DNA from: Methylomonas rivi | GTDB lineage: Bacteria; Pseudomonadota; Gammaproteobacteria; Methylococcales; Methylomonadaceae | Direction of reading: 5' to 3' | Assembly: GCF_024505165.1 (NCBI RefSeq) | Contig: NZ_JANIBK010000008.1 | Location: 1 to 63,002 of the forward strand | DNA: 63,002 nucleotides | Part shown: piece after piece, positions 20,892 to 41,433 of the stretch | Numbering within the stretch: the first letter of the stretch is position 1 | Layout: every line of letters begins with the position of its first letter | Notes under the pieces: model-generated | What the model was told of the DNA's origin: nothing | Databases searched by the model: none | What the model saw: the letters and a program-made list of their open reading frames with translations, nothing else | Position numbers and translations under genes: made by a program

Positions 20892-20948
20892 AATCTAAAG
20901 GCGATATTTAGCGGCCTTACAAATAGAGTTCGGAAAAAATAAGGTTTA

Positions 20949-22765: not shown

Positions 22766-22805
22766 TATTCCCCGTGGCATCTTCAACAAAATTAACGAGA
22801 ACTCT

Positions 22806-23975: not shown

Positions 23976-23983
23976 ATGATGCC

Positions 23984-24688
23984 ATGACTACGGCCGTTAT
24001 TCTCGCGGGTGGTTTAGGGACGCGCTTGCGTAGCGCTGTTCCGGAACTGCCCAAGCCGATGGCGCCGATCGGTGGGCGGCCGTTTCTTGAGTATCAGCTC
24101 GACTACTGGATCAAACAAGGGGTGAGCCGTTTTGTCCTGTCCGTTGGCTATCGGCATGAGGTCGTCATCGATCATTTTGGCGATAGCTATAAAGATGCCG
24201 AGCTTGATTATGTCATTGAGGCAACCCCATTAGGCACCGGCGGGGGATTCTTGTTGGCGGCTGAAAAAGTCAACAAACGCGAAGCGTTTTTACTGCTCAA
24301 CGGCGATACCTATTTTGCAGTGGATTTGAATACTTTGATTGAGTTCGCGCGGACAAACCATGCCAGTTGGTGCTTCTCGCTGTTCCGCACCAGTGAAGAC
24401 GGGCGGTATATGGGTATGGATGTCACGCCGCGAGGACAAATTACCTCACTTAAGTCGGATGCCGGACAAGCGGGTCGATTGGCAAACGGCGGTGTGTATT
24501 GGGTTAGCCCGGGAGCATTGCTGGATGAAAGATTTTCCGCTGGCGACAAAGTATCCCTGGAGGACGACATTTTTCCAGCCGCCATGGTTTCCGGGCAGCG
24601 CCTGTTCGGTCTCGAGTTTTCGGGGACTTTCATCGATATTGGTGTACCCGATGACTACTACCACGCTTCGGTTCTGCTGACGCAATAG
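23984..24688 (+). CDS. hddC: sugar-1-phosphate nucleotidyltransferase, HddC-like (GDP-D,D-heptose synthesis)
   Basis: Nucleotidyltransferase of 234 residues. The signature AVILAGGLGTRLR with PKPMAPIGGRPFL marks the NTP-binding loop, and LLLNGDTYFAVD gives the metal-binding Asp. HddC joins GTP to D-glycero-alpha-D-manno-heptose 1-phosphate. I start at the ATG 8 bases after the previous stop; an earlier in-frame ATG would overlap the dehydratase gene and adds an unconserved 11 residues. The HddC rather than generic RmlA/ManC call rests on length and on the flanking hddA, gmhA and gmhB genes. Confidence 0.8.
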   Translation: MTTAVILAGGLGTRLRSAVPELPKPMAPIGGRPFLEYQLDYWIKQGVSRFVLSVGYRHEVVIDHFGDSYKDAELDYVIEATPLGTGGGFLLAAEKVNKREAFLLLNGDTYFAVDLNTLIEFARTNHASWCFSLFRTSEDGRYMGMDVTPRGQITSLKSDAGQAGRLANGGVYWVSPGALLDERFSAGDKVSLEDDIFPAAMVSGQRLFGLEFSGTFIDIGVPDDYYHASVLLTQ

Positions 24689-24701
24689 ACAAGGCATTAC
24701 G

Positions 24702-25286
24702 TTGGATCCGATTGAATATCTCAAGAAAAATCTGGCATTGTCCATTCAAGCCAAGCAACAATTGCTGATGGATGAGGCGTGTCTGCGACTTTTCGAGCGT
24801 GCCGTGATGGCGGTTGTCGATAGTTATAAGCAAGGCGGCCGGATCTATATCGCCGGAAACGGAGGTTCGGCCGCCGACGCTCAACATCTCGCCGCTGAAT
24901 TCGTTAGTAAATTGGCTCGTGAAAGAGCCGCATTACCCGCCGAAGCGTTGACAGTCGATAGTTCGATTTTGACCGCCATCGGCAACGACTACGGTTACGA
25001 CTTAGTCTTTGCAAGGCAAGTGGCCGGCAAGGCAACCGCCAAGGATGTGTTTCTTGGCATAACCACTTCCGGACAGTCGCCGAATATTCTTAAGGCCTTG
25101 GAACAATGCCGAAGCGTGGCGGTGCCGAGCATCGTTTTCTGCGGGCGGGACGGCGGCAAGGTCAAGCTTATGGCCGACCATGCCATCATCGCGCCGGGGG
25201 ATACCACGAGTACCATTCAAGAATTGCATATCGTGTTGGCACATACGCTTTGCGAATGCGTGGAAGCGGCGATGTTTGGCGAATAA
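24702..25286 (+). CDS. gmhA: sedoheptulose 7-phosphate isomerase
   Basis: SIS-domain phosphoheptose isomerase of 194 residues, usual length. The SIS core is visible as YIAGNGGSAADAQHLAAEFVSK, followed by ALTVDSSILTAIGNDYGYD and ITTSGQSPN; the late ELHIVLAHTLCE supplies the conserved Glu/His of GmhA. It starts with TTG with a weak AAGG upstream. It converts sedoheptulose 7-phosphate to D-glycero-D-manno-heptose 7-phosphate, feeding HddA. It is a locus-specific copy; a chromosomal gmhA for LPS would be expected elsewhere. Confidence 0.92.
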   Translation: MDPIEYLKKNLALSIQAKQQLLMDEACLRLFERAVMAVVDSYKQGGRIYIAGNGGSAADAQHLAAEFVSKLARERAALPAEALTVDSSILTAIGNDYGYDLVFARQVAGKATAKDVFLGITTSGQSPNILKALEQCRSVAVPSIVFCGRDGGKVKLMADHAIIAPGDTTSTIQELHIVLAHTLCECVEAAMFGE

Positions 25287-25318
25287 ATTTTACACAACAA
25301 TAAAAAGGCAAACATTCA

Positions 25319-26257
25319 ATGAGTTACAAAATTCTTGTTACCGGCGGAGCCGGTTATCTCGGCTCCACTTTGGTACCCGACTTGCTGGCGGCGGGCCATC
25401 AGGTCACTGTGGTGGATAACTTTATGTATAGACAAGCGAGCTTGAATCAGGTCTGCCATTATCCAAACTTCAGCGTGGTCAAGGGGGATATTCGCGTCGA
25501 AAGCGTTATGGCTCCGTTGCTCAAGGAAGCTGACATTATCATTCCCTTGGCGGCGTTGGTAGGTGCTCCCTTGTGTAATCAGGATCCCGTGGGCGCAACC
25601 ACAATCAACCACGATGCGATTGCGATGATGCTAAAGCTGTTGTCTAAACAGCAATGGGTTTTGATGCCGACTACCAACAGCGCTTACGGCACAGGCGACG
25701 AGAATAATTTCTGTACTGAAGAATCGCCGTTAAGGCCGATTTCGCGTTATGCGATAGAAAAAGTCGCGGTTGAAAAGGAGCTGATGGCCTTCGAAAATGC
25801 CATTAGTTTCCGCTTAGCCACAGTATTTGGTATGTCGGCTAGGATGCGGACGGATTTGTTGGTCAACGATTTCACTTATCGGGCTGTTAACGACCGTTTC
25901 GTGGTGCTGTTCGAAAGCTATTTCAAGCGTAATTACGTTCATGTGCGTGACGTCTCGCGGGTATTCCAGCATGGTATTGCCAATTTCGATCGAATGAAAG
26001 GCCAGATATACAATGTCGGTCTGTCGGATGCGAATGTTTCGAAAAAAGAGCTATGCGAGACAATCCAAAAACAGGTGCCCGACTTTGTGTTTATCGATGC
26101 GCCGGTAGGTAAGGATCCCGATCAGCGCAATTATATTGTATCGAATGAAAAGATAGAGGCGACCGGGTTTCAAACCTCCGTGTCGCTAGAGGCTGGGATA
26201 GCGGAATTGATCAAAGGTTATACCATGATCAAGAACTCGCTATATGGCAATGTATAA
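25319..26257 (+). CDS. extended SDR: NAD-dependent nucleotide-sugar epimerase/dehydratase
   Basis: Protein of 312 residues with an N-terminal VTGGAGYLGS dinucleotide-binding motif. TNSAYG occupies the active-site Ser/Thr strand, and SRYAIEKVAVE supplies the Y-x3-K catalytic pair. It belongs to the WcaG/GalE-type extended SDR group. In the locus it most probably acts on the GDP-heptose (C3/C5 epimerisation, C4 oxidation or reduction), but neither the substrate nor the reaction type can be decided from the sequence. It could be the partner that prepares or reduces the keto-sugar handled by the ColD-like dehydratase. Confidence 0.75.
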   Translation: MSYKILVTGGAGYLGSTLVPDLLAAGHQVTVVDNFMYRQASLNQVCHYPNFSVVKGDIRVESVMAPLLKEADIIIPLAALVGAPLCNQDPVGATTINHDAIAMMLKLLSKQQWVLMPTTNSAYGTGDENNFCTEESPLRPISRYAIEKVAVEKELMAFENAISFRLATVFGMSARMRTDLLVNDFTYRAVNDRFVVLFESYFKRNYVHVRDVSRVFQHGIANFDRMKGQIYNVGLSDANVSKKELCETIQKQVPDFVFIDAPVGKDPDQRNYIVSNEKIEATGFQTSVSLEAGIAELIKGYTMIKNSLYGNV

Positions 26258-26262
26258 TAATC

Positions 26263-26859
26263 ATGGTAAAGGATTTTAGATCGTCAATACCCCCCCAAAT
26301 TACCTTGCTGTCGCGCAGTGTCGTTTTCGAAAATACGGTGTTCTCGGTATTCGCCGATCACATCGCCGATAACAGCGGGCATCAAGTTGAGCGCTATCTG
26401 AGCGTTCTGCCCAAGTATCTTGTGGATGACAGCATCGCCGGCGTGGCGGTCATACCCGTCGCCAACGAGAGAATAGGTCTGATTCGAATATTCCGGCATC
26501 CGGTCGGCCGTTGGTCGTGGGAAGCGATTAAAGGACATGTCGAGCCGGACGAAAATATACAGGCCGCGGCAGTACGTGAGTTGCAAGAAGAGGCCGGTTT
26601 CTCGGTATTGCCGGACGCGTTGCTCGATTTGGGATTTACCGCTCCGGAAGCCGGTGTGATCAAGGCGCGGACAAGACTGTTCGCGGTGGACGTGGAGCAA
26701 TCGGCGGCGAGAACCGTGGCAGGGGAACTCGGCCACGGCGAGATGGTGTTTTATTCCCGAGGCGAGATTGAAATGCTGATTGCCGAAGGCGAAATCGAGG
26801 ATGCCAGTACCCTGGTGCTTTTATTTAAATATTGGTTTCAACAGCATGAAAGGCCATGA
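26263..26859 (+). CDS. NUDIX hydrolase
   Basis: Protein of 198 residues with a complete Nudix box: GHVEPDENIQAAAVRELQEEAGF (G-x5-E-x7-R-E-x2-E-E-x-G). The N-terminal part resembles ADP-ribose/GDP-mannose pyrophosphatases (NudF/NudK type). In a nucleotide-sugar locus it may control GDP-sugar levels or clear dead-end products. It follows the SDR by 5 bases and overlaps the next glycosyltransferase by 4 bases. Confidence 0.85.
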   Translation: MVKDFRSSIPPQITLLSRSVVFENTVFSVFADHIADNSGHQVERYLSVLPKYLVDDSIAGVAVIPVANERIGLIRIFRHPVGRWSWEAIKGHVEPDENIQAAAVRELQEEAGFSVLPDALLDLGFTAPEAGVIKARTRLFAVDVEQSAARTVAGELGHGEMVFYSRGEIEMLIAEGEIEDASTLVLLFKYWFQQHERP

Positions 26860-28456: not shown

Positions 28457-29260
28457 ATGAACGCAGTAATCCGTTTTTTAATCGGTCTTTATCAGGGCAG
28501 GCGCACGATTCGGGCGCTGGCTCGCCGCGATGTGCTATCCCGTTATTCCGGAACCTTGTTTCGTAGCGCCTGGGAGCTGGCCAATCCGGCATTAACCTTA
28601 TTGGTCTTTTGGTTTGTGTTTTCGGTGGCGCTCAAGGCTAAGGGACCGGACGGGATTCCATTTATTTTATATTTCGTTACCGGCTACGTGCCCTGGCTGT
28701 TTTTTTCGGAAAGCCTGCTGCGCGGCACTCAAGGTGTAGTCGCACATAGTTTTTTAGTGAAAAAAATGGTATTTCCGTCAGAGTTATTACCGTTTGTCTA
28801 TCTTAGCGGCGGAGCTCTCAATCATGTGGTGTTGTTATTGCTCGCGGCGGTCGTATTGTTGTTTAACGGTGTTGCCGTTTCTTGGTATTGGCTGCAAATT
28901 CCCTACTATTTCTTGACCTTGTGCGCCACGCTGCTTGGTCTGCAATGGCTGCTATCGGCACTGAATGTGTTTAGCCGCGATTTGGGGCAAGGTGTTGGGG
29001 TTGTACTTAACGTTTGGTTTTGGGTAACGCCGGTGGTTTGGGTTGCGGACGGTGTCGTGCCCGCTGAGTATCAATGGTTAATGGCCGCGAATCCCGTAGG
29101 CTACGTGGTTGAGGGATACCGGGGCGCCCTGTTGTACCACAAGCCGTTTTGGATCAATTGGGAACAAGGCTTTTACGTATGGGCCGTGGCACTGGTTTTT
29201 GCCTGGATCGGCGCCAACGTGTTTCGCCGCCTCAAACCACACTTTGGAGATGTTTTGTGA
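28457..29260 (+). CDS. wzm: polysaccharide ABC transporter permease (Wzm/ABC-2 type)
   Basis: Inner-membrane component that exports a finished, lipid-linked polysaccharide; 267 residues with six predicted membrane segments. The N-terminal amphipathic region (RRTIRALARRDVLSRYSGTL) and the motif ANPALTLLVFWFVFSV are typical for Wzm/KpsM/TagG. The ATPase partner starts inside its stop codon (GTGA overlap). Its presence says the glycan is assembled in the cytoplasm by the ABC-dependent route, consistent with the lack of wzx/wzy genes here. Confidence 0.88.
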   Translation: MNAVIRFLIGLYQGRRTIRALARRDVLSRYSGTLFRSAWELANPALTLLVFWFVFSVALKAKGPDGIPFILYFVTGYVPWLFFSESLLRGTQGVVAHSFLVKKMVFPSELLPFVYLSGGALNHVVLLLLAAVVLLFNGVAVSWYWLQIPYYFLTLCATLLGLQWLLSALNVFSRDLGQGVGVVLNVWFWVTPVVWVADGVVPAEYQWLMAANPVGYVVEGYRGALLYHKPFWINWEQGFYVWAVALVFAWIGANVFRRLKPHFGDVL

Positions 29261-30639
29261 ATCCCGAAAGTGTTGCGTGCCGCGAAAGTGATTTAGCCAT
29301 TTCGGTTGCAGACGTATACAAAGCCTATAAGCTTTATCCGTCCCACCAAGATCGTTTGAAGGAGGCCTTGCACCCGTTTCGCAAGCGCTATCATCGGGAG
29401 TTTTCCGCTCTCAGCGGCATAAGCTTCGATATCCGCAAGGGTGAAAGCGTCGGTATTCTCGGTAGAAACGGCGCCGGAAAATCGACGTTGCTGCAACTGA
29501 TTGCAGGGGTGCTAACTCCGACTAGTGGAACAATCAGCGTCAACGGGCGAGTTGCCGCATTGCTTGAACTGGGCGCCGGTTTCAATCCCGATCTAACCGG
29601 ACGCGAGAATGTGATACTGGCTAGTACTATTCAAGGCGTTGCCGAAGATGCTATTCCCGACCGAGTAGCCGCAATTGAGGAGTTTGCCGATGTCGGGGTG
29701 TTTTTCGATCAGCCGATGAAAGTCTATTCATCGGGCATGTATGCGCGGGTTGCTTTTGCCAATGCAATTAATGTTAACCCCGACATATTGATAGTCGATG
29801 AAATACTGGGAGTCGGCGACGCCAAGTTTCAGGAGAAATGCTACAGCAAAATTAGAAGTCTGCGTGAACAAGGAGTTTGCATCCTTTTCGTTAGCCATAG
29901 CACCGAGGTAGTCCAGCGGAATTGTGAGTCGGCGATTCTCCTCGAAAGCGGAAATGTAGTGAAGTATGGGCCTGCCGACGCAGTGATTGCCATCTATCAC
30001 GACCTGCTTTATGGTTCTGGCGCGACGCTTAAAAATAATGGCAAGAATAGTGAGAGTCATAACAAAATTGCCAGCGCTTCCTCCTTTCTAACTGGTAACT
30101 TGCCGGGTTCGGAGTTGGTAAATTTTCTCCAGAATGGTGCCGAGCCCTGGTATCAGCGCTCTGGCCTTTATAACCCGAACGAACGACGCTTCGGAAATGG
30201 CGATGCCGAAATTGTGGATTTCTTCGTGACTGCCGACGGACATGCCAATTTCGATGTGTTATCCGGGAATGAAAGTTTAGCTATTTACATCAAAGTTAAA
30301 TTCAACAAGTATATTGCGCAGCCCGAAATCGGCTGGGCTGTCGTTAGTCCGGAAGGAATAGTCCTCTCAGGCTCAAATACTGCAATGACGAAAGTTATAC
30401 TTCCTCAGACCGTTTCAGGCGAGATAAGGGCATATGAGATTAAACTCCAACCCACACTATGTGGAGGAGATTTTTTTCTCAATCTTGGCGTCGGTGAACG
30501 TGTTGGCAAGACATGGACGTTCTTGGACAATCGGAGGGCGATTATTCATCTTACTGTAGCGCATCAAGAAAGCGCTTCTGGTTTTTTCAACATACCCTTC
30601 AAATGTAAGCCTATTTCTGATTCAATTCAGCATGAATAA
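29257..30639 (+). CDS. wzt: polysaccharide ABC transporter ATPase with C-terminal carbohydrate-binding domain (Wzt)
   Basis: ATP-binding subunit of the exporter, 460 residues, starting at a GTG that overlaps the wzm stop and follows GGAG. Walker A is GRNGAGKST, the Q-loop region is GAGFNPDLTGREN, the signature is the family variant YSSGMYARV, and Walker B is ILIVDEILGVGD. Residues after about 300 form a beta-sandwich domain like Wzt-C, which in E. coli O8/O9a recognises the chemically capped non-reducing end of the chain. That implies a terminating modification here; the sulfotransferases or carbamoyltransferase of the locus are candidates. Confidence 0.88.
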   Translation: MNPESVACRESDLAISVADVYKAYKLYPSHQDRLKEALHPFRKRYHREFSALSGISFDIRKGESVGILGRNGAGKSTLLQLIAGVLTPTSGTISVNGRVAALLELGAGFNPDLTGRENVILASTIQGVAEDAIPDRVAAIEEFADVGVFFDQPMKVYSSGMYARVAFANAINVNPDILIVDEILGVGDAKFQEKCYSKIRSLREQGVCILFVSHSTEVVQRNCESAILLESGNVVKYGPADAVIAIYHDLLYGSGATLKNNGKNSESHNKIASASSFLTGNLPGSELVNFLQNGAEPWYQRSGLYNPNERRFGNGDAEIVDFFVTADGHANFDVLSGNESLAIYIKVKFNKYIAQPEIGWAVVSPEGIVLSGSNTAMTKVILPQTVSGEIRAYEIKLQPTLCGGDFFLNLGVGERVGKTWTFLDNRRAIIHLTVAHQESASGFFNIPFKCKPISDSIQHE

Positions 30640-32185
30640 TTATACGAGCAACTCTAGCCTCTTGGTTGTTGGCCCTCCACGCAGTGGCTTCACCCTTCTG
30701 CTTTCAGTATTGTCCATCCTGTATAGAGATCGTGGTAACGCAAAACCAAGCGCCCAAGCAATTGCCGATCCCTACATCGCTATCGCCGGCGAATATCTCG
30801 ATGCCGCAATACGCGATTGGTTTTGTTCTCAGGTTGGCGAGGACAGGCTTTTCTACAACAAGGAATTCTCGATCCTGGTCGGTGGTCCGAAGTGGGTTTC
30901 GGCTGGCGACACAGAAACGATCTGCATTCGCAAGTATCTCGGTATCAAGGGGGCGGGAGACTTTACGTTTCTGCTGTATTTGCCGCGTTGGGTGATGGCG
31001 TTCGACGAAATCATTCATTCTCACAGTCACCCGGCACGCTGGCCTGCGATGCCGGACTATGCGGGATTCAGGAAGTTTGCATCGATCCGCAATCCGATCG
31101 ATATCATCCATTCCTCTGTTTTTTCGATCAATGCGCTCGCCAGCGAATATATCCAGCGTGAGTTGAAGCTCGACGAGCATCAGATTCGCCGAGAGCTTGC
31201 GCTCAACAAGTTGACTAATCCGGAATTTATTTCCGGATTGATCGTTTTTTTGAAGAATTATCTGGATGAGTTTATTCCCGCCATCGGCCAATACGATTAT
31301 CTGATGCGCTGGGAAGATTTGATTCAAGAGCCTGTCGCGGAGATTCGGCGCATCGCACAAGCTGCAGGCGAGCCCGTTAGCGCTGAGTATGCCGCTCGTG
31401 TTTGGAGCGAATTGGATCACCGTAATCTCACTCGCTATCACAGGCATAGCTTCCGCCGTGGTTTGCTGAACGACTGGCAGTTCAATATTACGAACACTCA
31501 CCTCAAGCTTTTTGAGGATGCCGGGTTCGGCGCGTATCTGGAGCGATTTGACTACGATCCGATTGCCTTCTTTGACGAAAGTAACTGTACCTCGGACCAG
31601 ATACTTATTGAGGAGCACATTCGGCGAGGGGAGCCCTATATAGAAAATCTCGATGACGATTTGATTACCTTTGCATTCAATAAGACAAACTTTACGCCGT
31701 CACCCCGTTTTCAGTTCAAACACTATCCGCGTCAAGGGGCAATTGAGATTGAGAAGTCTACGTTGCGAGACGAGGCGCTGGCGACTGGGTTTATGTCCCG
31801 CATGGCGACAGTCTCCGAGACTGTCTATCGGTATTTGACGGCGCTCCGTTTTGCGGCGATTGCCGCAGCGGAAGGGGATGAGTCTTTGCTGCGGGAGCTG
31901 CGTATCCGCTACAAGGATATTTTTTCCGAATGGCTCGGTGATCGGGCGGAAATCATGTTTTCGGCGCTAATGCAACCGTCTTCGTTGACGGCGCCTCCTC
32001 GTCTGGTCGGAAGTAAGTCCGGCTACAACATCGTGTCGTTTGGCGGTATTCACTATGCAGTGCCTCAATCACTTGGCCCAATGGATTTGAGCCAGTTGGA
32101 CATATCCTCATTACCTGCGGGAATCCTCGCTGGGCGCTCGCATGACGAAGCTCTTCAAGCAATTGAAATGGTATCTAAACAGTGA
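30632..32185 (+). CDS. sulfotransferase-like protein with a C-terminal NIV domain
   Basis: Protein of 517 residues overlapping wzt by 8 bases. The N-terminal GPPRSGFTLL matches the 5'-phosphosulfate-binding loop of PAPS sulfotransferases, and SIRNPIDIIHSSVFS matches the 3'-phosphate-binding segment. The middle (about 260-460) is helical and not recognised. Residues 464-517 are one copy of the repeated domain described for this locus (SGYNIVSFGGIHYAVPQSLG). Expected role: transfer of sulfate to the polysaccharide or its lipid anchor. Divergence in the 3' motif leaves room for a different phosphoadenosine-dependent or NTP-dependent reaction. Confidence 0.7.
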   Translation: MNNYTSNSSLLVVGPPRSGFTLLLSVLSILYRDRGNAKPSAQAIADPYIAIAGEYLDAAIRDWFCSQVGEDRLFYNKEFSILVGGPKWVSAGDTETICIRKYLGIKGAGDFTFLLYLPRWVMAFDEIIHSHSHPARWPAMPDYAGFRKFASIRNPIDIIHSSVFSINALASEYIQRELKLDEHQIRRELALNKLTNPEFISGLIVFLKNYLDEFIPAIGQYDYLMRWEDLIQEPVAEIRRIAQAAGEPVSAEYAARVWSELDHRNLTRYHRHSFRRGLLNDWQFNITNTHLKLFEDAGFGAYLERFDYDPIAFFDESNCTSDQILIEEHIRRGEPYIENLDDDLITFAFNKTNFTPSPRFQFKHYPRQGAIEIEKSTLRDEALATGFMSRMATVSETVYRYLTALRFAAIAAAEGDESLLRELRIRYKDIFSEWLGDRAEIMFSALMQPSSLTAPPRLVGSKSGYNIVSFGGIHYAVPQSLGPMDLSQLDISSLPAGILAGRSHDEALQAIEMVSKQ

Positions 32186-33720
32186 CTCGGTATTTGGATT
32201 TTTTTGAGCCAACGGTAGCATCTTCAATCGAGAAACCGCTTGCGGATGCTTATGCGCGTGGTGCCAGAAGAGTATTGGTTACCGGAAAACCCGCTCGCAG
32301 AGAAGAAATAAGCGATCTGCTCGATAAACTCGGGTTTTCGTCGGTTGAGAATCCGTCGGCGATTTTTCATGCATCGGATGTCGTTAATATTGATCTGATT
32401 GTTATTGGCGGTGGTGCTGGCGACGAGGTGTCGAGAACGCTTCACGCATGCATTGGGTTATCAGTCGCTGTGATTGCGCCAGTAACGGAACATCACGTCA
32501 GCAAACGAACCGTATTCCTGCTGTCGATACCGAAAGCAGGCACCCATATGCTGATCCGCTTATTCGGATTGATGGGACTGGAGCGGTCCTCCGATCGGAG
32601 GCCACGCCCAGGCACCTGGTCCACACCCGTTGGATACGAGTACCATGCGCCGTGTCGGGAGCTTTTGGCCAATGATGCGTTCGATCCGCAAGGTCGACAG
32701 TTGCTGTTTCGCTCTCCAGCCATTTTTGTGTATCGTAATCCCTTGGATATAATCGTTTCCGAGCTGGATTGGTTCAAGAAAGAGGAGCATGCATTTTCCG
32801 GTTATTTGAATTATTTTTCCGATGAAAAGGAACGTTTGAGTCAGTTGATTCAAGACGATACGGTGATGGGTTCAATCCGTGACAGAGTCCGGCGGTATAT
32901 CGGATGGATGATGTTCAATAATGTCATTCCTGTTAGTTATGAAGAATTAGTAGGTAGCCGTGGAGGCGGGTGCGATCTTCAACAAGCAGAATCGATTTGG
33001 GCGCTGCAGCTGAAATTGCATATTGCCGGTAGTCCGCAAGAATATGCAAAACAGTTGTATGATCAAGGCAGCGCCACGTTTTCAAAAGGCCGCATTGGCC
33101 GGCATCTGGAATGTTTCGGAGACGAGCAATTTGCGTTGTTTGACCGTTTGCCTCAGGATTTCATGCAAATATTAGGGTATGCAAGAGGCTCGTTTATTTC
33201 GAAGCGAATTAAAGACTTATTGCACCGTCCGTTGGTGGTCAAAGGTATACCGGAAGATTTGCTGTATGTCCCGCGTTTGGCGAGAGAAGGAATTCTCGGG
33301 TTTAACATTGTCGAGATTGCCGGACGCTATTTCCCGATTCGCCAGGGTAAATCGATCGAATCCCTATCGGAGGCAATCGCGTTTTTTAACGAAAACGATG
33401 GGTTTACAACCATTAAAGAAGCAGAACAGTTCGTCCATGCAGTTGTTCAACAGGAAGGCGCTTACAATACCGATAATGGCTTGATATTAGAAGGTTTTCT
33501 GGGTTTCAACATCGTTCGATGCAAAGGATGTTGGTATGGATTTGATCAATCTGTCGGTGCTTTGGATGTGGATGGTTTGAGTAAAGATGATATTGCGGCT
33601 TTGAGTAAAAAGAAGCAGTGCGTCGGAGGGGAAAGCATCGCGGACGTTAAAGCTGAGATTCTAAAATTAGCTGTGGTAGGGCAGCAACATTCCAGTAAAG
33701 AGTTTCAGAGTACCCCGTAA
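32182..33720 (+). CDS. second sulfotransferase-like protein with N-terminal extension and two NIV domains
   Basis: Protein of 512 residues starting with GTG in the stop of the previous gene. Residues 1-100 form an extra alpha/beta domain (RRVLVTGKPARREEI, IDLIVIGGGAGDEV). The sulfotransferase core then begins with the 5' loop LLSIPKAGTHMLIRLF and has the 3' loop VYRNPLDIIVSELDWF. Two C-terminal NIV-type domains follow: one starting near residue 373 (GFNIVEIAGRYFPI, degenerate) and one near 441 (GFNIVRCKGCWYGF). The two adjacent sulfotransferases differ enough to have separate targets. Probably cytoplasmic, acting before export. Confidence 0.7.
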   Translation: MTRYLDFFEPTVASSIEKPLADAYARGARRVLVTGKPARREEISDLLDKLGFSSVENPSAIFHASDVVNIDLIVIGGGAGDEVSRTLHACIGLSVAVIAPVTEHHVSKRTVFLLSIPKAGTHMLIRLFGLMGLERSSDRRPRPGTWSTPVGYEYHAPCRELLANDAFDPQGRQLLFRSPAIFVYRNPLDIIVSELDWFKKEEHAFSGYLNYFSDEKERLSQLIQDDTVMGSIRDRVRRYIGWMMFNNVIPVSYEELVGSRGGGCDLQQAESIWALQLKLHIAGSPQEYAKQLYDQGSATFSKGRIGRHLECFGDEQFALFDRLPQDFMQILGYARGSFISKRIKDLLHRPLVVKGIPEDLLYVPRLAREGILGFNIVEIAGRYFPIRQGKSIESLSEAIAFFNENDGFTTIKEAEQFVHAVVQQEGAYNTDNGLILEGFLGFNIVRCKGCWYGFDQSVGALDVDGLSKDDIAALSKKKQCVGGESIADVKAEILKLAVVGQQHSSKEFQSTP

Positions 33721-33769
33721 TTTGATGTGTTGGTTAAAACCCTAAAGTAATAGCCTGAATTATTCCAAA

Positions 33770-35062
33770 ATGAACGAAATAATCCACAAACAATCCGAAC
33801 GAACTGCATCACGGTTATCCATTATCTTATTGGATTGGGGCTGCCGCGAACGCTTTACCGCCTTGGATTGGTTAAATAAGCAGGATGTTCCCAGAGAAAC
33901 CTACGAACTGATCTGGGTAGAACTCTATGACCGGGTAATGGACGAGGTGATGGAGAAAGCGGATGTTGTCATTACCTGCAATCAGCGCGGCACCTATCAC
34001 AAGCACCTCGGCTACAACATCGGGTTACTGCAAGCGCGGGGAGACTTGATTTGCATCTGCGATAGCGATGCGGTATTTCCGATCGATTTTGTCAGTTCGG
34101 TGTTCCGCTCTTTCGAAATCGACTCTGGCGTTAAGGCGCGGCCTATCGTTTTGATGCACTATGAATGGCGTACATCGCTACTTTATCCGGACGATCTCAC
34201 GGATGCCGAAGAACTCAAGAATAGCGAGCGCTGGCAATGGTGGCCGCTGATCGTCAACGAAGGGGCGTGCGTGACGGTGCGGCGAGAGGATGCGATTCGT
34301 TTCGGCGGTTTTGACGAACATTCAAGCTACATCGGTTACCTGTGCGGCCCCTATGATTTGGCTTGGCGCCTCGTCAATGCAGGCTGGGCCGAAATTTGGC
34401 ACGACAGCTCCGTGGCCTTATGGCACTTCGCGCATCCGGATCCGATTGGCACCAACGGTCAAAAGGCATCTCTTAAACAATTGATGGAAAAAGCTCATCC
34501 TCATTTGCACGGGCATGCATTGACCGCCGTCGAGGCTTTTTCGAGCGGCCGTTTTCAGCCGCTGCAAGAGAATGCACAAATCTGGGCGATGCGTATGCGT
34601 GACAGGCAGATCGGATCGGAGTTGGAGACTCGCTATTCGAATTTGACCGGGCCGCGAGGGTTTTCGGCGTGGTATGTTGCTGTTTTATGGTTTTCGCTTG
34701 TGAAGGAAATTATAGGACAGTATCTTGATGATCGGCTATGGAAACCCACTCTAAGCAATATTCGTAAGGTTCTCGGAGAGAGGATTTATTCTAAACTCCG
34801 GAGTATCTATCGCGAATATGTGACAGCATATCAGATCGATTATTCGGTTCTTGCGGAAAACCCAATATTGTTATGTGCGTACCGGCAGCACAATATTGTT
34901 AAATTCCAAGACAATTTTTATGCTGCTTGCCATGGCTTGGGGGATTTGGATTTAACAACCGTCGAAGGGCGGGCGTGCCCTGAATTATTGGTATCGAATA
35001 ACTATTTTCAGTTGTTGAAAATGGTTAGAAACCATAGATTAAGTGCAGAATTAAATAATTAA
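33770..35062 (+). CDS. family-2-like glycosyltransferase with a C-terminal NIV domain
   Basis: Protein of 430 residues. The GT-A domain shows LSIILLDWGCRERFTAL, YHKHLGYNIGLLQARGD, the metal motif CDSDAV and YLCGPYDLAWRLVNAG, all parallel to the glycosyltransferase at 26856-28085. A helical linker then leads to one NIV domain from about residue 373 (QHNIVKFQDNFYAACHGLGDLDL). The pair of paralogues, one with and one without the domain, shows that the domain is an add-on and not part of the catalytic fold. Confidence 0.75.
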   Translation: MNEIIHKQSERTASRLSIILLDWGCRERFTALDWLNKQDVPRETYELIWVELYDRVMDEVMEKADVVITCNQRGTYHKHLGYNIGLLQARGDLICICDSDAVFPIDFVSSVFRSFEIDSGVKARPIVLMHYEWRTSLLYPDDLTDAEELKNSERWQWWPLIVNEGACVTVRREDAIRFGGFDEHSSYIGYLCGPYDLAWRLVNAGWAEIWHDSSVALWHFAHPDPIGTNGQKASLKQLMEKAHPHLHGHALTAVEAFSSGRFQPLQENAQIWAMRMRDRQIGSELETRYSNLTGPRGFSAWYVAVLWFSLVKEIIGQYLDDRLWKPTLSNIRKVLGERIYSKLRSIYREYVTAYQIDYSVLAENPILLCAYRQHNIVKFQDNFYAACHGLGDLDLTTVEGRACPELLVSNNYFQLLKMVRNHRLSAELNN

Positions 35063-35067
35063 TAAAA

Positions 35068-35511
35068 ATGGAAAAATTAAAAAACTATGATATTTTCTTG
35101 ACGCATGCGTGGCGTTTTCATGATGATTGGAAGAGGTTCTCCGAACTTCTGGATGGAACGGCTAACGTAGCGTGGCGTAACTTTAGCTTACCTTGGCACG
35201 ATCCGGCGATGAATCCGAATAGTGAAGTTGGAGGACGTTTCATCCGGGATTTTCTGGAAAGCCAGATTATTCCTGTCCACAGCGTTGTGCTACTGAGCGG
35301 CGTTTACAAAATCAATAGCGCTCGCCGCTGGTTCGATATGGAAGTCGAAATGGCTCGTAAACATAATAAACCACTGATCGGTATCCCCGGGTTGGGCGAA
35401 GATTCCGTGCCCGACGAAGTGGCAATCCTTTGCGACGAGTGTTGTGGCTGGGATGCGTTACAGTTATTGGCTACAATAGATCGGGTTAGAGAACTACCCA
35501 AATATTTGTAG
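35068..35511 (+). CDS. ThsB-like TIR-domain protein (MTH538 family)
   Basis: Stand-alone protein of 147 residues. It opens with YDIFLTHAWRFHDDWKRF and has WRNFSLPWHDP, VVLLSGVYKIN, WFDMEVEMARKHNKPLIGI and a final CGWDALQLL. This is the layout of the MTH538 TIR-like family to which Thoeris ThsB belongs. ThsB makes a cyclic-ADP-ribose-type signal on phage infection; in other contexts the family is uncharacterised. It is placed 5 bases after a glycosyltransferase in the glycan operon, and no ThsA (SIR2-SLOG or Macro-TM) is nearby. Identification of the fold is good; function is open. Confidence 0.75.
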   Translation: MEKLKNYDIFLTHAWRFHDDWKRFSELLDGTANVAWRNFSLPWHDPAMNPNSEVGGRFIRDFLESQIIPVHSVVLLSGVYKINSARRWFDMEVEMARKHNKPLIGIPGLGEDSVPDEVAILCDECCGWDALQLLATIDRVRELPKYL

Positions 35512-35575
35512 TTTGTCCGAAGTTTTATGGCTTCTTTGTCTAAATGTTATTGGGTAGCCATTTGAGGAACATGAA

Positions 35576-38500
35576 ATGAACGATACAACCGTTGTCATGA
35601 CCCTAAAAAAGGGTTCTTCTACCACACAGGTCGAAGGCGTCAGAGTGGCATTCAGTCCGCATCAATGTTTTGCCTTCGATAATGGTAAAGACGATTTGGC
35701 ATGTTTGAACGCATTGGCCAATCATCTTAAAGTTCTGCCTGGGCTGGTTCTTGTCGGATCGCGGCGGTTTGTGGAGTATTTTCTTCAAAATATACCCGAT
35801 ATGGCGGATCATTTTATCGGTTCAATTGTTTATCCGTCTGCAGTGGATGGATATGTTGGGCATGGCCTTGCTTCCGTTTCGCTGGATATCGGATTGTTGC
35901 CGGAAACCACAGAAACAGTTTTTATCGGTGAGACCTTGGAATTACCTAGGATGCAGATTAAACAGCAGCTTCCTAAATCCTTGAATATCGTCGAGCCGAC
36001 AATTTTGGCTAAAATCGATCCCGAGGTTATTCCGGCTCGAGGCTGGACGCCTCTGCAGCGTAATATCTATCCGATCGAAATTCCGGTTATCAGCTTCAGG
36101 GAAAAGCTTGACTTTGCAATTGTTGACGCCCCATCGCGAAATCTCTCGCTGATGCCGAATGGTCTCGGGTATCTAAATAATGCTTTGAAAAAGACCAGCG
36201 TGGTATTTCAGATACTGGATCTGGATATTATTTCCTATCACCGCTTCCATGTACATCGCTTGTACGACATGGGCGGCCAAATCGTGCTACCCGGCGATCT
36301 GGTATTGCCGGAAGATCCGTGGCAAGCCGAGCATTACGATCTGTGGACAGCCGCCGGCGGCGGAGCGTCCGGAGTAACGGGGCGGAATGAGGTACTGGAA
36401 TTTTTCAGACCTGTGATCGATGAAACGATAGATGCACTGGTTCAAGCCCGTCCAAAAGTACTTGGATTGTCGATTCAAGGTTGTAACGAGGCGGCGGCTC
36501 GCGAGATTGCGGTCGGCGTCAAAGCAAAGCTGCCCGAGATAGTCATCGTGGTGGGCGGGTTCAGTTGCTATAACTCCGATATCGGACGCAGAGCGTTTCC
36601 CGAATGCGATTATATGTGTATCGGTGAGGCTGATTTGACTGTTGGGCCGCTGCTTGAAGCGTTAGCGCGGGGAGAAAAGCCTTTCAATCAACCGGGTATT
36701 CTGTCGCGTTTCGATACTCCGGATTTCAGATACTTGCCTGCGCCGATGATCCATGACCTGGACAAGATCGAATTCCCTAAATACGAATGGTGCGATTTAA
36801 AGATTTATCGTAATTTCAATGATTACCAACTGACGCCAATTATTGCCAGCCGTGGTTGTCGCTGGTCGCGCTGTAGCTTCTGTGCCGAACGATTTTACTG
36901 GCGGATTCGTACGCCGGAAAATTTTGTCGATGAATTGGAGTGGTTGGTCAATCAAGGTTGCTACCTGTTCATGTTTAATGAGAGCGATCTTGGCGGTATG
37001 CCTGAGCGGGTTGAGGAAATATGCGACGAAATCATACGCCGCGGATTGCACCATAAAGTCAAACTCACCGGCCAGTTGCGGGTGAATAAAAATCAAACCC
37101 GATCATTCTTCGAGAAGCTGCGCGCCGCGAATTTCGTTGCGCTACGGTTCGGTATCGATGCCTTTTCGGAAAATACTTTACGACTGCAAAAGAAGGGATA
37201 CACGGTCGATATGATTTCTCAAAATCTTAAGGATTGTTGGGAAGTCGGAATTTTTACAGAAATTAATTGGGTTATTGGTGTTCCAGGCGAAACCGATGCT
37301 GACGTTGAGGAAGGTATCGAGTTGATTTTAAGGAACAGCAAATACATAGGCAGGCTGGCTAACATCAATCCGTTGATATTAGTCAACGGCAGTGTGTATT
37401 GGATAGATCCCGAGGCGCATAACATTGTGTTTAAGGAGCCAAAGGAGCAGATCTACGCAAAGTATCCGCGGGCTTTGCCTGCTGATCAGTGGTATAGCAC
37501 TGATCCCTATATCGATGCCCAGGTGCGAAAGGAGCGCTTCGAGCGGATCGTAATTGCGCTGTACGATGCGGGGTTCAATGTAGGGGCTTGGGCAAATCGC
37601 ATCATTGAGGATGTCAAACTATCGAGGGATAAGGCCCGTACCGGCGGTGCGGTTGGGGATAGCGGTAGTTTCGGCGAATTTGAAATTGCTGGCGGTGAAA
37701 AAGCAGTAATTTCTTCGAAACAACCTTTATCCGAAGAAGAGCAAGCTGTCGATTTGGCCAGCCACCGCAGGCCGCTCGAAGAGAAATTGCATACCGAAAA
37801 GGTTGTTTCAATAAAAACGGCTCAGTCCAAGAGGCAATCGGCGGCTGAGCCCGCCGCGGCTCCGCCGTTACATGGCATCGTTGGCGAATCGCCGCAATTA
37901 CTGCGGGAAACAGACACCCATAAGGTGATATTTTACAATGGTTGGTATTACGGGATCCCTTATGGATTAGCGGGTGTTGATCTCACGGACCCCGCGGCAG
38001 CCAATCACCCTGGCATTATTCGCCTTGCCAGTGAAGCCGAAGTGGTGAAACTTATAGAAGAAAGCGAGCGCTGGGCAAATTCGCGCGGACAATATGATGA
38101 CCAGAAAAAACAGCGGGAGGGGGGGGCTTACATGCGCGCGGATAGTCTGGGTGAAACATCCGGATTGGTCGAGCTTCCCAGTAAACCAAGAGTTTTTGCA
38201 ATTGGTAGGACTTATGTCGCCGTCAATCAGACCTCCTTGGAAAATGCTTTCAAGAAGAATCGGAGTTCTGTTCACACAATCGGGCCTAAACAGCGCGGGC
38301 CTGGTGCTGCCAATACCAACCAGATTCCCGGTAGTACTTTTACGAGGCGTGTAGTGAGTAAGTTTCCTCCCGTACTTGTCGATAGAATACGTGGTTTGAT
38401 TCGCCAGCAATCCTATAGTGCCGGAATCGCATCCGGCCCCTTGGTGACTAAAAGCGATAGGCAACTGGCTGGCATGCTGTTGCGCGCACTCGGCGATACT

Positions 38501-39082
38501 TATATTAAACAGCCGTTAAGAAACCTTCGTCGGACGCTTACTAGCGAGGATCGCTCAGCAATGGGCATTGAAGGTATTGCGGTGGAAGGCGAGGATTTTT
38601 CCATTATTTCCGTAGTAACCAAAAATGCTCAACCCGAACTTATGTGGACCATAGGTTCCTACAATATCGTTAAGTTCGACGGGCAGTATTACGGAGTACC
38701 GCATGGGGCGTCAGTCGATTGGGAGGCGGGAGCGATCTCTGCAATCCCAGGTATGTTGATTGGCGAGCATGTTGCCGATTTGGTGGCAATGATCGATAGA
38801 AAAACAAATGTGGTTAGCAATGACAAGGTTGTTAATGCGACTATCGTTGCGACCGGCTCTGCTGTTTCAAGCAATCCCGTGCTGCTCGGTAGTATGGAAG
38901 AGGAGGGCTACAATATTGTTTATTACGAAGGTTGGGTATATGGCATGCCGCACCAATTAGGCAATATCGACCTGACCTTGGTGGATGTGATGGAAATGCC
39001 CGGCGTAATTCGAGATGTATCTCGCGACGCTGTGGAATCGGAAATCGTTTCACGAAGCGAAGAAAAAAGGCACGTGGCTTAA
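35576..39082 (+). CDS. giant B12-binding radical SAM protein carrying three NIV domains
   Basis: Protein of 1168 residues, about twice the normal size. Residues 1-180 are an unrecognised alpha/beta region; a B12-binding-like domain follows (VLGLSIQGCNEAAAR, VVVGGFSCYNSD, CIGEADLTVGPLLEAL). The radical SAM core has SRGCRWSRCSFC (Cys 428, 433, 436; the C-x4-C-x2-C variant). After about residue 700 comes a disordered Ser/Glu/Ala-rich linker, then NIV domains starting near residues 780, 1028 and 1111, and a weaker copy near 871. It lacks the DxHxxG cobalamin motif. It probably modifies the glycan or an activated precursor by radical chemistry, with the C-terminal third serving tethering or binding. 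Confidence 0.72.
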   Translation: MNDTTVVMTLKKGSSTTQVEGVRVAFSPHQCFAFDNGKDDLACLNALANHLKVLPGLVLVGSRRFVEYFLQNIPDMADHFIGSIVYPSAVDGYVGHGLASVSLDIGLLPETTETVFIGETLELPRMQIKQQLPKSLNIVEPTILAKIDPEVIPARGWTPLQRNIYPIEIPVISFREKLDFAIVDAPSRNLSLMPNGLGYLNNALKKTSVVFQILDLDIISYHRFHVHRLYDMGGQIVLPGDLVLPEDPWQAEHYDLWTAAGGGASGVTGRNEVLEFFRPVIDETIDALVQARPKVLGLSIQGCNEAAAREIAVGVKAKLPEIVIVVGGFSCYNSDIGRRAFPECDYMCIGEADLTVGPLLEALARGEKPFNQPGILSRFDTPDFRYLPAPMIHDLDKIEFPKYEWCDLKIYRNFNDYQLTPIIASRGCRWSRCSFCAERFYWRIRTPENFVDELEWLVNQGCYLFMFNESDLGGMPERVEEICDEIIRRGLHHKVKLTGQLRVNKNQTRSFFEKLRAANFVALRFGIDAFSENTLRLQKKGYTVDMISQNLKDCWEVGIFTEINWVIGVPGETDADVEEGIELILRNSKYIGRLANINPLILVNGSVYWIDPEAHNIVFKEPKEQIYAKYPRALPADQWYSTDPYIDAQVRKERFERIVIALYDAGFNVGAWANRIIEDVKLSRDKARTGGAVGDSGSFGEFEIAGGEKAVISSKQPLSEEEQAVDLASHRRPLEEKLHTEKVVSIKTAQSKRQSAAEPAAAPPLHGIVGESPQLLRETDTHKVIFYNGWYYGIPYGLAGVDLTDPAAANHPGIIRLASEAEVVKLIEESERWANSRGQYDDQKKQREGGAYMRADSLGETSGLVELPSKPRVFAIGRTYVAVNQTSLENAFKKNRSSVHTIGPKQRGPGAANTNQIPGSTFTRRVVSKFPPVLVDRIRGLIRQQSYSAGIASGPLVTKSDRQLAGMLLRALGDTYIKQPLRNLRRTLTSEDRSAMGIEGIAVEGEDFSIISVVTKNAQPELMWTIGSYNIVKFDGQYYGVPHGASVDWEAGAISAIPGMLIGEHVADLVAMIDRKTNVVSNDKVVNATIVATGSAVSSNPVLLGSMEEEGYNIVYYEGWVYGMPHQLGNIDLTLVDVMEMPGVIRDVSRDAVESEIVSRSEEKRHVA

Positions 39083-39966
39083 TGTGGTGGAGACGCAAGC
39101 GATGTAAATTGCCGTTTTTCTCCACGCAAGGTATTTTGCAGCAAGCTGATCCTCGGTGTTGGCAGGATCATTTTTTCGGTTTGACGCCAGCACGGTGGGC
39201 TAGATTGGCTGGTTGCGCATTCTGGATTACCGGAGCCGGCACGGGTTACGGACGTGCCATTGCTCTGGCTCTTGCGGCAAGCGGGGCGACGGTATTTTTG
39301 ACCGGGAGGCGGAGCGAAAAATTACAGGAGACATTGGATGAAGGAGTATGCCTCGGGATCAAGACCGATCAGTGTATTCCGATTGTTGCGGATATTACTT
39401 CCGAGTCGGATCTGATTCAAGCAATAGAATTGATTTCGCGGCATGTTTCGAAACTGCATGGTCTTGTCAATAACGCCGCCCAGCCCCAACCCTGCAGTGG
39501 AAATCGACCGTTGACCGAACTTAGCCTCGCATCTTGGAACGAGCTAATGTCTGTCAACGTGACCGGCCAATGGCTGCTTACCAAGCTTGCCATGCCGTTA
39601 TTAATTAATAGCGATTCCTTACGCATCGTGTTTATGTCATCGGAAGCTGGTTGGGCATATACCTCCGGCTTTGGACCGTATAACATCAGTAAATCCGCGC
39701 TAAATACGCTTGGGGCTTCCTTGGCTGCCGAGTGGGCGGGGCATTTTCCCGACAAAGACATTCAGATCAATGTGTTAATTCCCGGAGAAGCAAAAACCGA
39801 AATGAATCAAGCTTCAACCATTAGCCCTTACTCAGTGGTTAGTATGACGTTAACATTGCTGTCTCATCCATCTGGTGGGCCTAACGGGTGCTTTTTTCAT
39901 CGGGATGGTAGGCATTTAGAGTTTGCCTACTCTCCCTCTTATGTGAATGACCTTCTAGTGCCATAA
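39082..39966 (+). CDS. short-chain dehydrogenase/reductase
   Basis: SDR of 294 residues. The ATG overlaps the stop of the radical SAM gene by one base; an open frame further upstream lies inside that gene. The cofactor motif is WITGAGTGYGRAIA (T-G-x3-G-x-G) and the dinucleotide-stabilising NNAAQ replaces NNAG. The catalytic Ser is in FMSSEAGWAY and Y-x3-K is YNISKSAL. The N-terminal ~45 residues (MWWRRKRCKLPFF) are an unusual basic extension. Most likely reduces a keto-sugar or an intermediate made by the neighbouring enzymes; the substrate is unknown. Confidence 0.75.
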   Translation: MWWRRKRCKLPFFSTQGILQQADPRCWQDHFFGLTPARWARLAGCAFWITGAGTGYGRAIALALAASGATVFLTGRRSEKLQETLDEGVCLGIKTDQCIPIVADITSESDLIQAIELISRHVSKLHGLVNNAAQPQPCSGNRPLTELSLASWNELMSVNVTGQWLLTKLAMPLLINSDSLRIVFMSSEAGWAYTSGFGPYNISKSALNTLGASLAAEWAGHFPDKDIQINVLIPGEAKTEMNQASTISPYSVVSMTLTLLSHPSGGPNGCFFHRDGRHLEFAYSPSYVNDLLVP

Positions 39967-39997
39967 GCAATTCTATTTGTTCTGGAGTATCTGCCCA

Positions 39998-41413
39998 GTG
40001 GGTTTATTGCGGTTATTTCTTGCTTTATCAGTAGTGATTCATCACTTGCCTCAACGCTCTTTTGCTTGGCTAAACGCTGGGGTAGCCGTACTCGTGTTTT
40101 TCATAATATCCGGGTTTTACATGGCTCTTGTTATTAATGAGAGATATTCAAAAATGGAATTTTGGCATTGGCGATTTTATTTGAGTCGCGTGTATCGAAT
40201 ATTCCCCGCATATTATGCTGTCCTCTCTTTCGCCTTGATATGGTTTGCCATTATAAAATCACCTTCAGTGTTTTCCGAAAACTATGATTTAGGCTTCTGG
40301 AGGCAGCTTGGGCTTATTTTGCCAAATCTTTTTATTTTTGGGCAGGATATGTTCCAAGCGATATTAATGACCAACGCCTATGAGAAACATAACATTATAT
40401 CTGATTCGTTTTTTGCTTTCCTGGGATTGGGTTTCTTTCAGAATCAGTTCATGATAATCGGACAAGCTTGGTCATTAGCGGAAGAGCTAGTCTTTTATGC
40501 CCTAGCCCCTTTTTTTGTCCTCAAAAGAAGCAGAATTTTAGCAATTTTAGCGATCTCACTAAGCATAAGAGCGCTATTACAAGCACAAAGTAATTCATTT
40601 CCTCCTATCGTTTGGGGCTATTGGTTTTTCCCAAGCACCATATCGTTTTTTTGCCTTGGTGCATTGGGTTATTTTGGGTACAAAAAAATCTCCTGTTTCA
40701 ATTGGGGGAAAACGGTAGGAGTTATGGTCTGGGGCACAGCGACTATATTGGTTATATACAGATTAATACATGGCGGTATCCTTTATGAAGGTTCCGACTG
40801 TGATTCGGTTAATCACTGGATATTTTTTATTGGCGTCGCAATATGTCTCCCTTTCATTTTTTTAGCGAGTAAGGACAGTTATTTTGACCGACTTTTGGGT
40901 GAATTTTCTTATCCCCTTTATTTGGTCCATGGTTTTGTAATAGGAATATTGTTTAGTCGATTTGGATTAAAACCTGGTAGTTTGGTTTTCGAAGCACTAG
41001 TCATCTTATGTTCAGTTGGCGTTTCAGCTTTGATATACATTTGCGTCGATTATCCGGTTGACCGGTACAGATACCACATTGAAACTGCGAGCCTTTTTTC
41101 ACTACTTAGGCAGACTTATTTGATGGTTACCATGATTTTGGTTATTGGATTTGTTTCGAATACTAGAACCCAATTCTTAGCACCACATCCGTTATTGACT
41201 CAAGAGCGTCCCAGTTTGTATGGGAAAGCCAAAAGTATGCCACCTATTTTAGTGGAGGTTGTCGGTAAATTTAATATTGTGAGTTTTAACAATTTGTATT
41301 ATGCAATTCCTCACGGACAAGGTGTAGATTGGAACCACGACAATGTTTCCGAACTTCATGGCGTTCTGACTGGCAGTAGTCAGAACGAGATAATTACGCG
41401 TATTCAGCATTAA
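39998..41413 (+). CDS. acyltransferase-3 family membrane protein with a C-terminal NIV domain
   Basis: Polytopic O-acyltransferase (OafA/YrhL family), about 471 residues with ten or so membrane helices. The family start GLLRLFLALSVVIHHLPQR contains the conserved Arg and His; FFIISGFYMALV and QAWSLAEELVFYALAP (Ser-x2-x-Glu) follow. Residues after the last helix carry one NIV domain (KFNIVSFNNLYYAIPHGQG). I prefer the GTG at 39998 because the protein then begins at the conserved motif; a TTG at 39977 is an alternative. The gene is markedly AT-richer than its neighbours, suggesting separate origin. Likely O-acetylates or otherwise acylates the glycan. Confidence 0.75.
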   Translation: MGLLRLFLALSVVIHHLPQRSFAWLNAGVAVLVFFIISGFYMALVINERYSKMEFWHWRFYLSRVYRIFPAYYAVLSFALIWFAIIKSPSVFSENYDLGFWRQLGLILPNLFIFGQDMFQAILMTNAYEKHNIISDSFFAFLGLGFFQNQFMIIGQAWSLAEELVFYALAPFFVLKRSRILAILAISLSIRALLQAQSNSFPPIVWGYWFFPSTISFFCLGALGYFGYKKISCFNWGKTVGVMVWGTATILVIYRLIHGGILYEGSDCDSVNHWIFFIGVAICLPFIFLASKDSYFDRLLGEFSYPLYLVHGFVIGILFSRFGLKPGSLVFEALVILCSVGVSALIYICVDYPVDRYRYHIETASLFSLLRQTYLMVTMILVIGFVSNTRTQFLAPHPLLTQERPSLYGKAKSMPPILVEVVGKFNIVSFNNLYYAIPHGQGVDWNHDNVSELHGVLTGSSQNEIITRIQH

Positions 41414-41433
41414 ATTTACCAGCTTACAACTTG

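Follow-up and report, generated by a model that had tools for sequence, protein, structure and literature searches.

A small module repeated in unrelated enzymes of a Methylomonas rivi surface-glycan locus, and its possible role as a glycan-binding tail

A stretch of 63,002 nt from Methylomonas rivi (assembly GCF_024505165.1, contig NZ_JANIBK010000008.1, positions 1 to 63,002 of the forward strand; hereafter the window) contains a surface-glycan locus in which a module of about 50 residues occurs eight times in five proteins, between positions 30632 and 41413. The carriers are two sulfotransferases (ST1 and ST2, with one and two copies, respectively), a GT2-like glycosyltransferase (one), a B12-type radical SAM protein (three) and an AT3 acyltransferase (one), and all eight copies lie C-terminal to the catalytic parts. 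The reading favoured here, tentatively and at a little under an even chance, is that the module works as a small, non-catalytic tail that binds the glycan. It is preferred because the carriers span at least five enzyme superfamilies, hold between one and eight copies, are predicted on both faces of the membrane and associate with an exporter, and because the ratio of non-synonymous to synonymous substitution (dN/dS) is low.

Eight copies in one locus

The reality of the copies was assessed by a leave-one-protein-out procedure, in which a profile built from the other proteins was scored against the left-out protein and 2000 shuffles of that same protein. Each of the five outscores all of its shuffles, with values of 33.4 bits for ST1 (best shuffle 6.3), 7.6 for ST2 (3.5), 19.8 for the glycosyltransferase (6.1), 34.1/22.5/8.1 for the radical SAM protein (3.5) and 34.3 for the acyltransferase (6.4), and chance repetition was rejected on these grounds. 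The sole copy not recovered in this way is the first of ST2 (−0.3 bits), which is retained because the Methylomicrobium counterpart has the same copy (5e-5); it scores 2e-4 with a wider profile, but that profile was seeded with the copy itself. Amongst 402 window frames of at least 60 aa these five alone reach E < 0.1, and after the eight copies the next match in the organism's own genome (382 contigs) has an E-value of 1.49. The initial annotation, made from the sequence alone, had counted at least eight recurrences in five proteins with LGxxDL or VDW variants; profiles and shuffles bear out the eight copies, and both variants are present. Recent duplication inside the window was also rejected, as the other copies share only 20–35 % identity with the first, and a tree sorts the copies by enzyme family.

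A possible fourth, hairpin-only copy in the radical SAM protein, around 38192–38233, is weak and discernible in orthologs only, the window protein itself not scoring there. Across the inter-copy regions of the window protein and 16 orthologs, 13 of 17 best local matches start at profile position 4 and residue 46, with a maximum of 5.4 bits.

Identity and predicted fold of the module

Pfam-A, searched with 73 diverse copies at E ≤ 1, gave no family in more than two members (best 0.0053). Over the tails of the five window proteins, Pfam returned only PF10682 (UL40; 0.085, 13 bits against a cutoff of 27), which is not credible, and NCBIfam returned nothing at E ≤ 1. PHROGs at E ≤ 0.1 yielded ten families, each with one of the 73 copies (best 0.0043), whilst a profile search of PDB sequences found no match, the best (E 0.081) being a designed protein. 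Wzt_C (PF14524), the carbohydrate-binding domain of the exporter component Wzt, is matched by none of the 73 copies at E ≤ 1. A named domain was therefore rejected as the identity of the module, in agreement with the earlier remark that no named domain shows this pattern; domination of the matches by a described Pfam domain, which had been foreseen as a possible outcome, is likewise not seen.

The consensus of a profile from 236 aligned copies (some from duplicate fetches) reads GYNIVRYDGRYYAVPQGLGPVDLTSLDVAALPGVLVGESLEEVLAEI and includes conserved aromatic residues. AlphaFold2, applied to the alignment of 73 copies, predicts a small confident domain (predicted local distance difference test, pLDDT, 84.5; predicted template modelling score, pTM, 0.67) in which three strands are followed by a loop containing short helical turns, then by one further short strand and finally by a C-terminal helix. 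No close solved structure was found for this single domain model. Judged by these comparisons, the domain family seems undescribed so far.

Carrier enzymes and architecture

Beyond the window, 46 fetched loci (duplicates L135 and L147 left out) contain 114 carrier proteins with 203 module copies. A single copy is found in 59 carriers, two in 28, three in 24, four in two and eight in one, such that 55 of the 114 have two or more. Catalytic parts were assigned with Pfam in the 38 carriers scanned, the rest being placed by similarity only. Families above cutoff are Sulfotransfer_1, _2 and _3, Glycos_transf_2, Radical_SAM (with or without SPASM), Acyl_transf_3 and Methyltransf_24, _23 and _11; GT4-like carriers match sub-threshold only, and several polytopic carriers have no family match in the Pfam scan. 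The enzyme labels originally given to the window proteins hold above cutoff for the sulfotransferases and the acyltransferase, but the Pfam match of the glycosyltransferase falls below threshold (Table 1). Fusion to carbohydrate-active enzymes, one of the marks of carbohydrate-binding modules, is found here, and from its size and variable copy number we infer that the module is non-catalytic. Within the window, the profile scan finds it absent from the short-chain dehydrogenase (SDR), the TIR-like protein and two other GT2-like proteins (26856–28085 and 41431–42318).

The initial claim of an invariably C-terminal position holds within the window but is not universal elsewhere: in 102 of 114 carriers, no more than 100 aa separate the end of the final copy from the C-terminus. 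The module precedes a Sulfotransfer_2 domain in L143:110-1225, stands between two GT2 stretches and a methyltransferase in L138:7630-11295, and is ahead of a SPASM radical SAM enzyme in L166:8348-10198, where a second, weak match (0.073) occurs near the C-terminus. A stand-alone protein with three copies is found in L048 (3914-4774), and locus L054 harbours small proteins with a membrane anchor and one or two full or partial copies, as well as three radical SAM homologs that have no module. Taken together, these module-free homologs, stand-alone forms and varied positions mean that the module can be gained, lost, repeated and separated.

Copy number is extended furthest in L044:5177-8383, with four closely similar tandem copies, and in L131:9151-12912, a sulfotransferase-like protein with eight copies, most of them nearly identical and separated by coiled-coil-like spacers, the product of a recent expansion. 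Such tandem expansions would fit repeats that serve avidity.

Two further proteins deserve mention. One, the membrane protein L168:5861-8005, has a C-terminal module and matches a polyamine synthase weakly (E 0.011); it is the sole carrier that is not obviously a glycan enzyme. The other, L034:6473-6799, is a 109-residue frame with a single module, located between SDR and GT2 genes at the position of the window's acyltransferase, and could represent a remnant or else a module that stands alone.

Table 1. Module copies, carrier genes and neighbouring genes in the window
Feature	Position	Strand	Basis
Module copy, C-terminus of ST1	32003..32182	+	profile searches, leave-one-out
Module copy 1 of ST2, weakest copy	33280..33459	+	profile searches
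Module copy 2 of ST2, with short insertion	33484..33684	+	profile searches, leave-one-out
Module copy, C-terminus of GT2-like glycosyltransferase	34868..35050	+	profile searches, leave-one-out
Module copy 1 of radical SAM protein	37898..38080	+	profile searches, leave-one-out
Module copy 2 of radical SAM protein, VDW variant	38639..38818	+	profile searches, leave-one-out
Module copy 3 of radical SAM protein, sequence modelled by AlphaFold2	38888..39070	+	profile searches, leave-one-out
Module copy, C-terminus of AT3 acyltransferase, VDW variant, behind extra predicted transmembrane segment	41249..41410	+	profile searches, leave-one-out
ST1	30632..32185	+	PF00685, 26.3 bits (cutoff 22)
ST2	32182..33720	+	PF00685, 24.9 bits (cutoff 22)
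GT2-like glycosyltransferase	33770..35062	+	PF00535, 21.0 bits, sub-threshold (cutoff 23.3)
TIR-like protein, no module, conserved neighbour	35068..35511	+	PF08937 ThsB_TIR, 22.4 bits (cutoff 21.2)
Radical SAM protein, three module copies	35576..39082	+	B12-binding match sub-threshold, 29.8 vs 32.1 bits
SDR, open frame; N-terminal part overlaps radical SAM gene, true start not settled	38932..39966	+	
AT3 acyltransferase, one module copy	39977..41413	+	PF01757, 59.3 bits
Wzm	28457..29260	+	ABC2_membrane
Wzt with Wzt_C carbohydrate-binding domain, open frame, true start not settled	29149..30639	+	
Upstream sugar-nucleotide genes: GHMP kinase, split transketolase, DegT, NTP transferase, SIS isomerase, epimerase, NUDIX	19899..26859	+	Pfam families

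Membrane side of the carriers and candidate ligands

That one module is shared by unrelated enzymes implies a shared ligand, which could be the glycan, the modules or exporter themselves, or a lipid. The best discriminator found between these candidates is the compartment in which carriers act. Sulfotransferases, which use 3′-phosphoadenosine 5′-phosphosulfate, S-adenosylmethionine-dependent methyltransferases and radical SAM enzymes perform cytosolic chemistry. In the acyltransferase, one additional transmembrane segment is predicted to separate the module from the AT3 core, in four of four orthologs. As described for AT3-SGNH proteins, an 11th helix places the fused domain in the periplasm (PMC9833829), and a review locates acylation outside the cytoplasm, whilst discussing two systems where the inside is proposed (PMC9558356). 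Lysine and arginine residues around the extra segment agree with an outer tail in three orthologs (6 vs 3, 7 vs 2 and 7 vs 3) and are neutral in the window protein (2 vs 3); the total predicted was 13 or 12 segments, which leaves the parity uncertain. Four polytopic proteins of one deltaproteobacterial genome have the module behind their membrane part, one of the matches being weak (0.0045). In the same genome, at L135:6500-14006 (the same place as in L054), three large membrane proteins are interleaved with two small module proteins that have a membrane anchor; one of the large proteins has a YfhO match (1.3e-6) just below cutoff. These deltaproteobacterial polytopic carriers are presumably GT-C-like transferases with outer-face tails. 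If the predicted topologies are right, the module acts on both membrane faces.

This bears directly on a rather unlikely alternative, namely an assembly-line scaffold, in which modules would bind each other or a common partner (Wzt/Wzm or the TIR-like protein) and gather the enzymes at the exporter. Carriers predicted on both faces cannot share one single-compartment scaffold, and glycan binding is rated above it because the glycan is common to both sides. The initial annotation had offered a recruitment or scaffold tag and a glycan-binding domain side by side; a real module on unrelated glycan enzymes makes both readings no more than plausible, and carriers predicted on both faces speak against a single-compartment scaffold and somewhat for a glycan ligand. 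Least probable of the readings considered is a membrane or polyprenyl-lipid tether that holds soluble enzymes at the membrane surface. The polymer is indeed lipid-linked in Wzm/Wzt pathways, as set out in PMC11231755, and the aromatic residues of the module would suit such a role, but polytopic membrane proteins, which need no tether, have the module as well.

Under the glycan-binding reading, each copy would bind the lipid-linked polymer made by its locus. On the cytosolic face, sulfotransferases, methyltransferases, radical SAM enzymes and glycosyltransferases would stay on the chain during modification; on the outer face, acyltransferases and polytopic proteins would do likewise, and several copies per protein would raise avidity.

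Distribution across genomes

A scan with the whole radical SAM protein returned 23 loci, from Nitrospira, methanotrophs (Methylobacter and Methylomicrobium sp. wino1), Rhodocyclaceae, Betaproteobacteria, Rhodospirillales and others. A module copy is present in 22 of these; in the remaining one, L055, the gene is cut by a contig end. Profile searches of genome sets, each count including the carriers already known, found the module in 8 of 151 relatives (own genome counted), 3 of 397 genomes of the phylum (own genome counted), 16 of 196 from the order of a Nitrospira carrier (that carrier counted), 4 of 240 of a class (two known carriers counted), 2 of 191 of another set (one known carrier counted) and 1 of 199 of a further set, this being the known carrier itself. 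The module is therefore rare and patchy, yet dense where present. Amongst 33 genomes with two or more matches, a single cluster of at most 22.5 kb holds all of them in 27, including two (G015 and G551) where all matches are in one protein. The six exceptions have matches on different contigs, and G843 and G552 look like true second loci. Single-cluster placement would suit the gathering of enzymes by a scaffold, but simple inheritance of the locus would produce it too.

Gene neighbourhood and the exporter

Within the stretches fetched, Wzm and/or Wzt profile matches occur in 28 of 48 module loci, or 27 of 46 without the duplicates. Amongst the 19 loci that lack them, eleven are short contigs or start at a contig end and L133 continues L132; the longer loci L044, L050, L054, L056, L137, L164 and L165 gave no match to the Wzm/Wzt profiles. 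The expectation that matches would cluster at the C-termini of glycan enzymes in Wzm/Wzt loci thus stands for the mostly C-terminal placement and for 27 of 46 loci, but not for the other 19. Where Wzm/Wzt is seen, the first carrier comes after the Wzt gene in 24 of 27 loci; L051 has a TIR-like gene between, and in L132 and L134 carriers are on another side. The order glycosyltransferase, TIR-like, radical SAM, SDR recurs from methanotrophs to Nitrospira.

For a scaffold at the exporter, the position of carriers after Wzt is a point in favour, as are the module-only small proteins (L048:3914-4774, and the membrane-anchored forms of L054), the coiled coils that accompany the module in some tails, and the recruitment of a polymerase by the C-terminal region of WbdD described in PMC11231755. 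Against it, no partner was found in every locus: 19 of 46 have no Wzm/Wzt match, although short contigs or contig ends account for about eleven of them, and the TIR-like gene was missed by BLAST in many stretches, e.g. L129, L131, L134 and L138-L142.

With regard to the TIR-like gene itself (window 35068-35511), 26 loci have a radical SAM homolog (the window, L034-L056, L132 and L164), and in 22 of them it stands immediately before the gene for that enzyme. It was not found in L053, L054 and L132, and is downstream in L056.

The genes at 19899-26859, with a split transketolase and a DegT enzyme, resemble, judging by their Pfam families, a set for heptose activation. Their epimerase is 76–87 % identical to counterparts in 18 other loci, mostly together with DegT (76–89 %) and NTP transferase (59–79 %), whilst L054, L055, L166 and L167 have upstream sugar-gene matches merely 26–58 % identical. 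In the 151 relatives, searched for the epimerase at E ≤ 1e-80, the eight module genomes are exactly the eight with an epimerase of at least 84 % identity, one more genome having it at 61 %. Within the Nitrospira order, an epimerase of at least 80 % identity is found in 15 of 16 module genomes and also in three module-free genomes, and in 13 further module genomes it is 81–92 % identical in two and 50–74 % in eleven. Due to this spread of identities across genome sets, a strict tie of the module to one sugar was rejected, and the link looks mostly like co-inheritance of the locus. Epimerases 80–92 % identical to that of the window in module-bearing methanotroph relatives and Nitrospira suggest exchange between phyla.

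The three module-free genomes of the Nitrospira order keep the same epimerase (80–84 %) and the NTP transferase, and show no Wzm/Wzt match in the 16–18 kb after the sugar genes, the rest of these genomes not having been searched. Ten frames scanned there include methyltransferases and asparagine synthase in two genomes and a glycosyltransferase in two. In this small comparison, presence of the module coincides with that of the exporter and not with that of the sugar genes.

Selection and history of the copies

The window was compared with its Methylomicrobium sp. wino1 counterpart over 380 module, 2297 catalytic and 348 linker codons. Pooled dN/dS values are 0.105 for modules, 0.114 for catalytic parts and 0.19 for linkers. 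Module values exceed catalytic ones in ST1 (0.216 vs 0.128), the glycosyltransferase (0.133 vs 0.088) and, slightly, ST2 (0.127 vs 0.121), and are lower in the radical SAM protein (0.049 vs 0.085) and the acyltransferase (0.047 vs 0.215), with synonymous sites near saturation in the ST2 and radical SAM modules. The comparison shows that the module is kept by selection, as had been supposed from the divergence of its copies.

A tree of 138 copies tracks carrier family, with 30 label changes against a lowest value of 76 in 300 shuffles, but does not track locus, with 118 changes against a lowest of 114 and a mean of 119. The copies have therefore long resided in their enzymes, and this tree gives no sign of joint adaptation within a locus. 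That copies of one locus are no more alike than chance weighs further against a scaffold. The following of carrier family, together with strong conservation of the third radical SAM copy amongst 18 aligned orthologs, is what would be expected of an enzyme-specific accessory part, i.e. a part fused long ago to each enzyme, which it would stabilise or whose active site it would shape, with no ligand in common. We regard this as improbable, since occurrence on at least five unrelated superfamilies, in one to eight copies and at either end of or between catalytic domains, is unlike a fold-specific stabiliser, and the radical SAM homologs of L054 do without the module.

Comparison with known systems

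Even if the domain family is undescribed, its type of role is probably already known. The Wzt C-terminal domain binds the terminal part of the exported glycan, according to PMC11231755. Like the module, Wzt_C is non-catalytic, is C-terminal on a part of the machine and belongs to the same kind of locus; unlike it, Wzt_C comprises about 140 residues, and amongst the window proteins scanned it matches Wzt only. WbdD likewise has a C-terminal non-catalytic region that organises Wzm/Wzt pathway enzymes (PMC11231755), and coiled-coil-like stretches reminiscent of its coiled-coil ruler also occur in some module tails. The WbdD region is, however, described for the terminator protein of a system, whereas the module is one homologous domain on many enzymes. 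According to the same source, one O7 terminator enzyme has a predicted immunoglobulin-like carbohydrate-binding domain, and other terminators are not known to have one (PMC11231755). AT3-SGNH acyltransferases such as OafB share with the window acyltransferase the AT3 core, an extra transmembrane helix and a C-terminal soluble domain (PMC9833829). The soluble part of the window protein is the small module rather than an SGNH domain.

A different parallel is offered by the choline- and glucan-binding repeats of cell-wall proteins, which are short aromatic beta-hairpins found in tandem on unrelated catalytic domains. No such Pfam match occurs in the 73 copies, and the module is longer and ends in a helix. 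What sets the module apart from Wzt_C and WbdD is its spread over many tailoring enzymes of one locus.

A wider picture, which we hold with less assurance than glycan binding itself, is that of a single glycan-reading handle carried, at both membrane faces, by most of the tailoring enzymes in one assembly line, whereby any fold could join by acquiring the handle and loci could freely exchange enzymes amongst Nitrospira, methanotrophs and other bacteria. If true, enzymes of surface-glycan pathways would be recognised by a common handle rather than by fold, and the module would be a marker for unknown glycan-tailoring enzymes, several carriers having no Pfam family. In glycan engineering it would also offer a means of fixing selected modifying enzymes to a polymer, and it would yield a model, open to test, of how modifying enzymes in the cytosol hold on to a long lipid-linked chain until its export.

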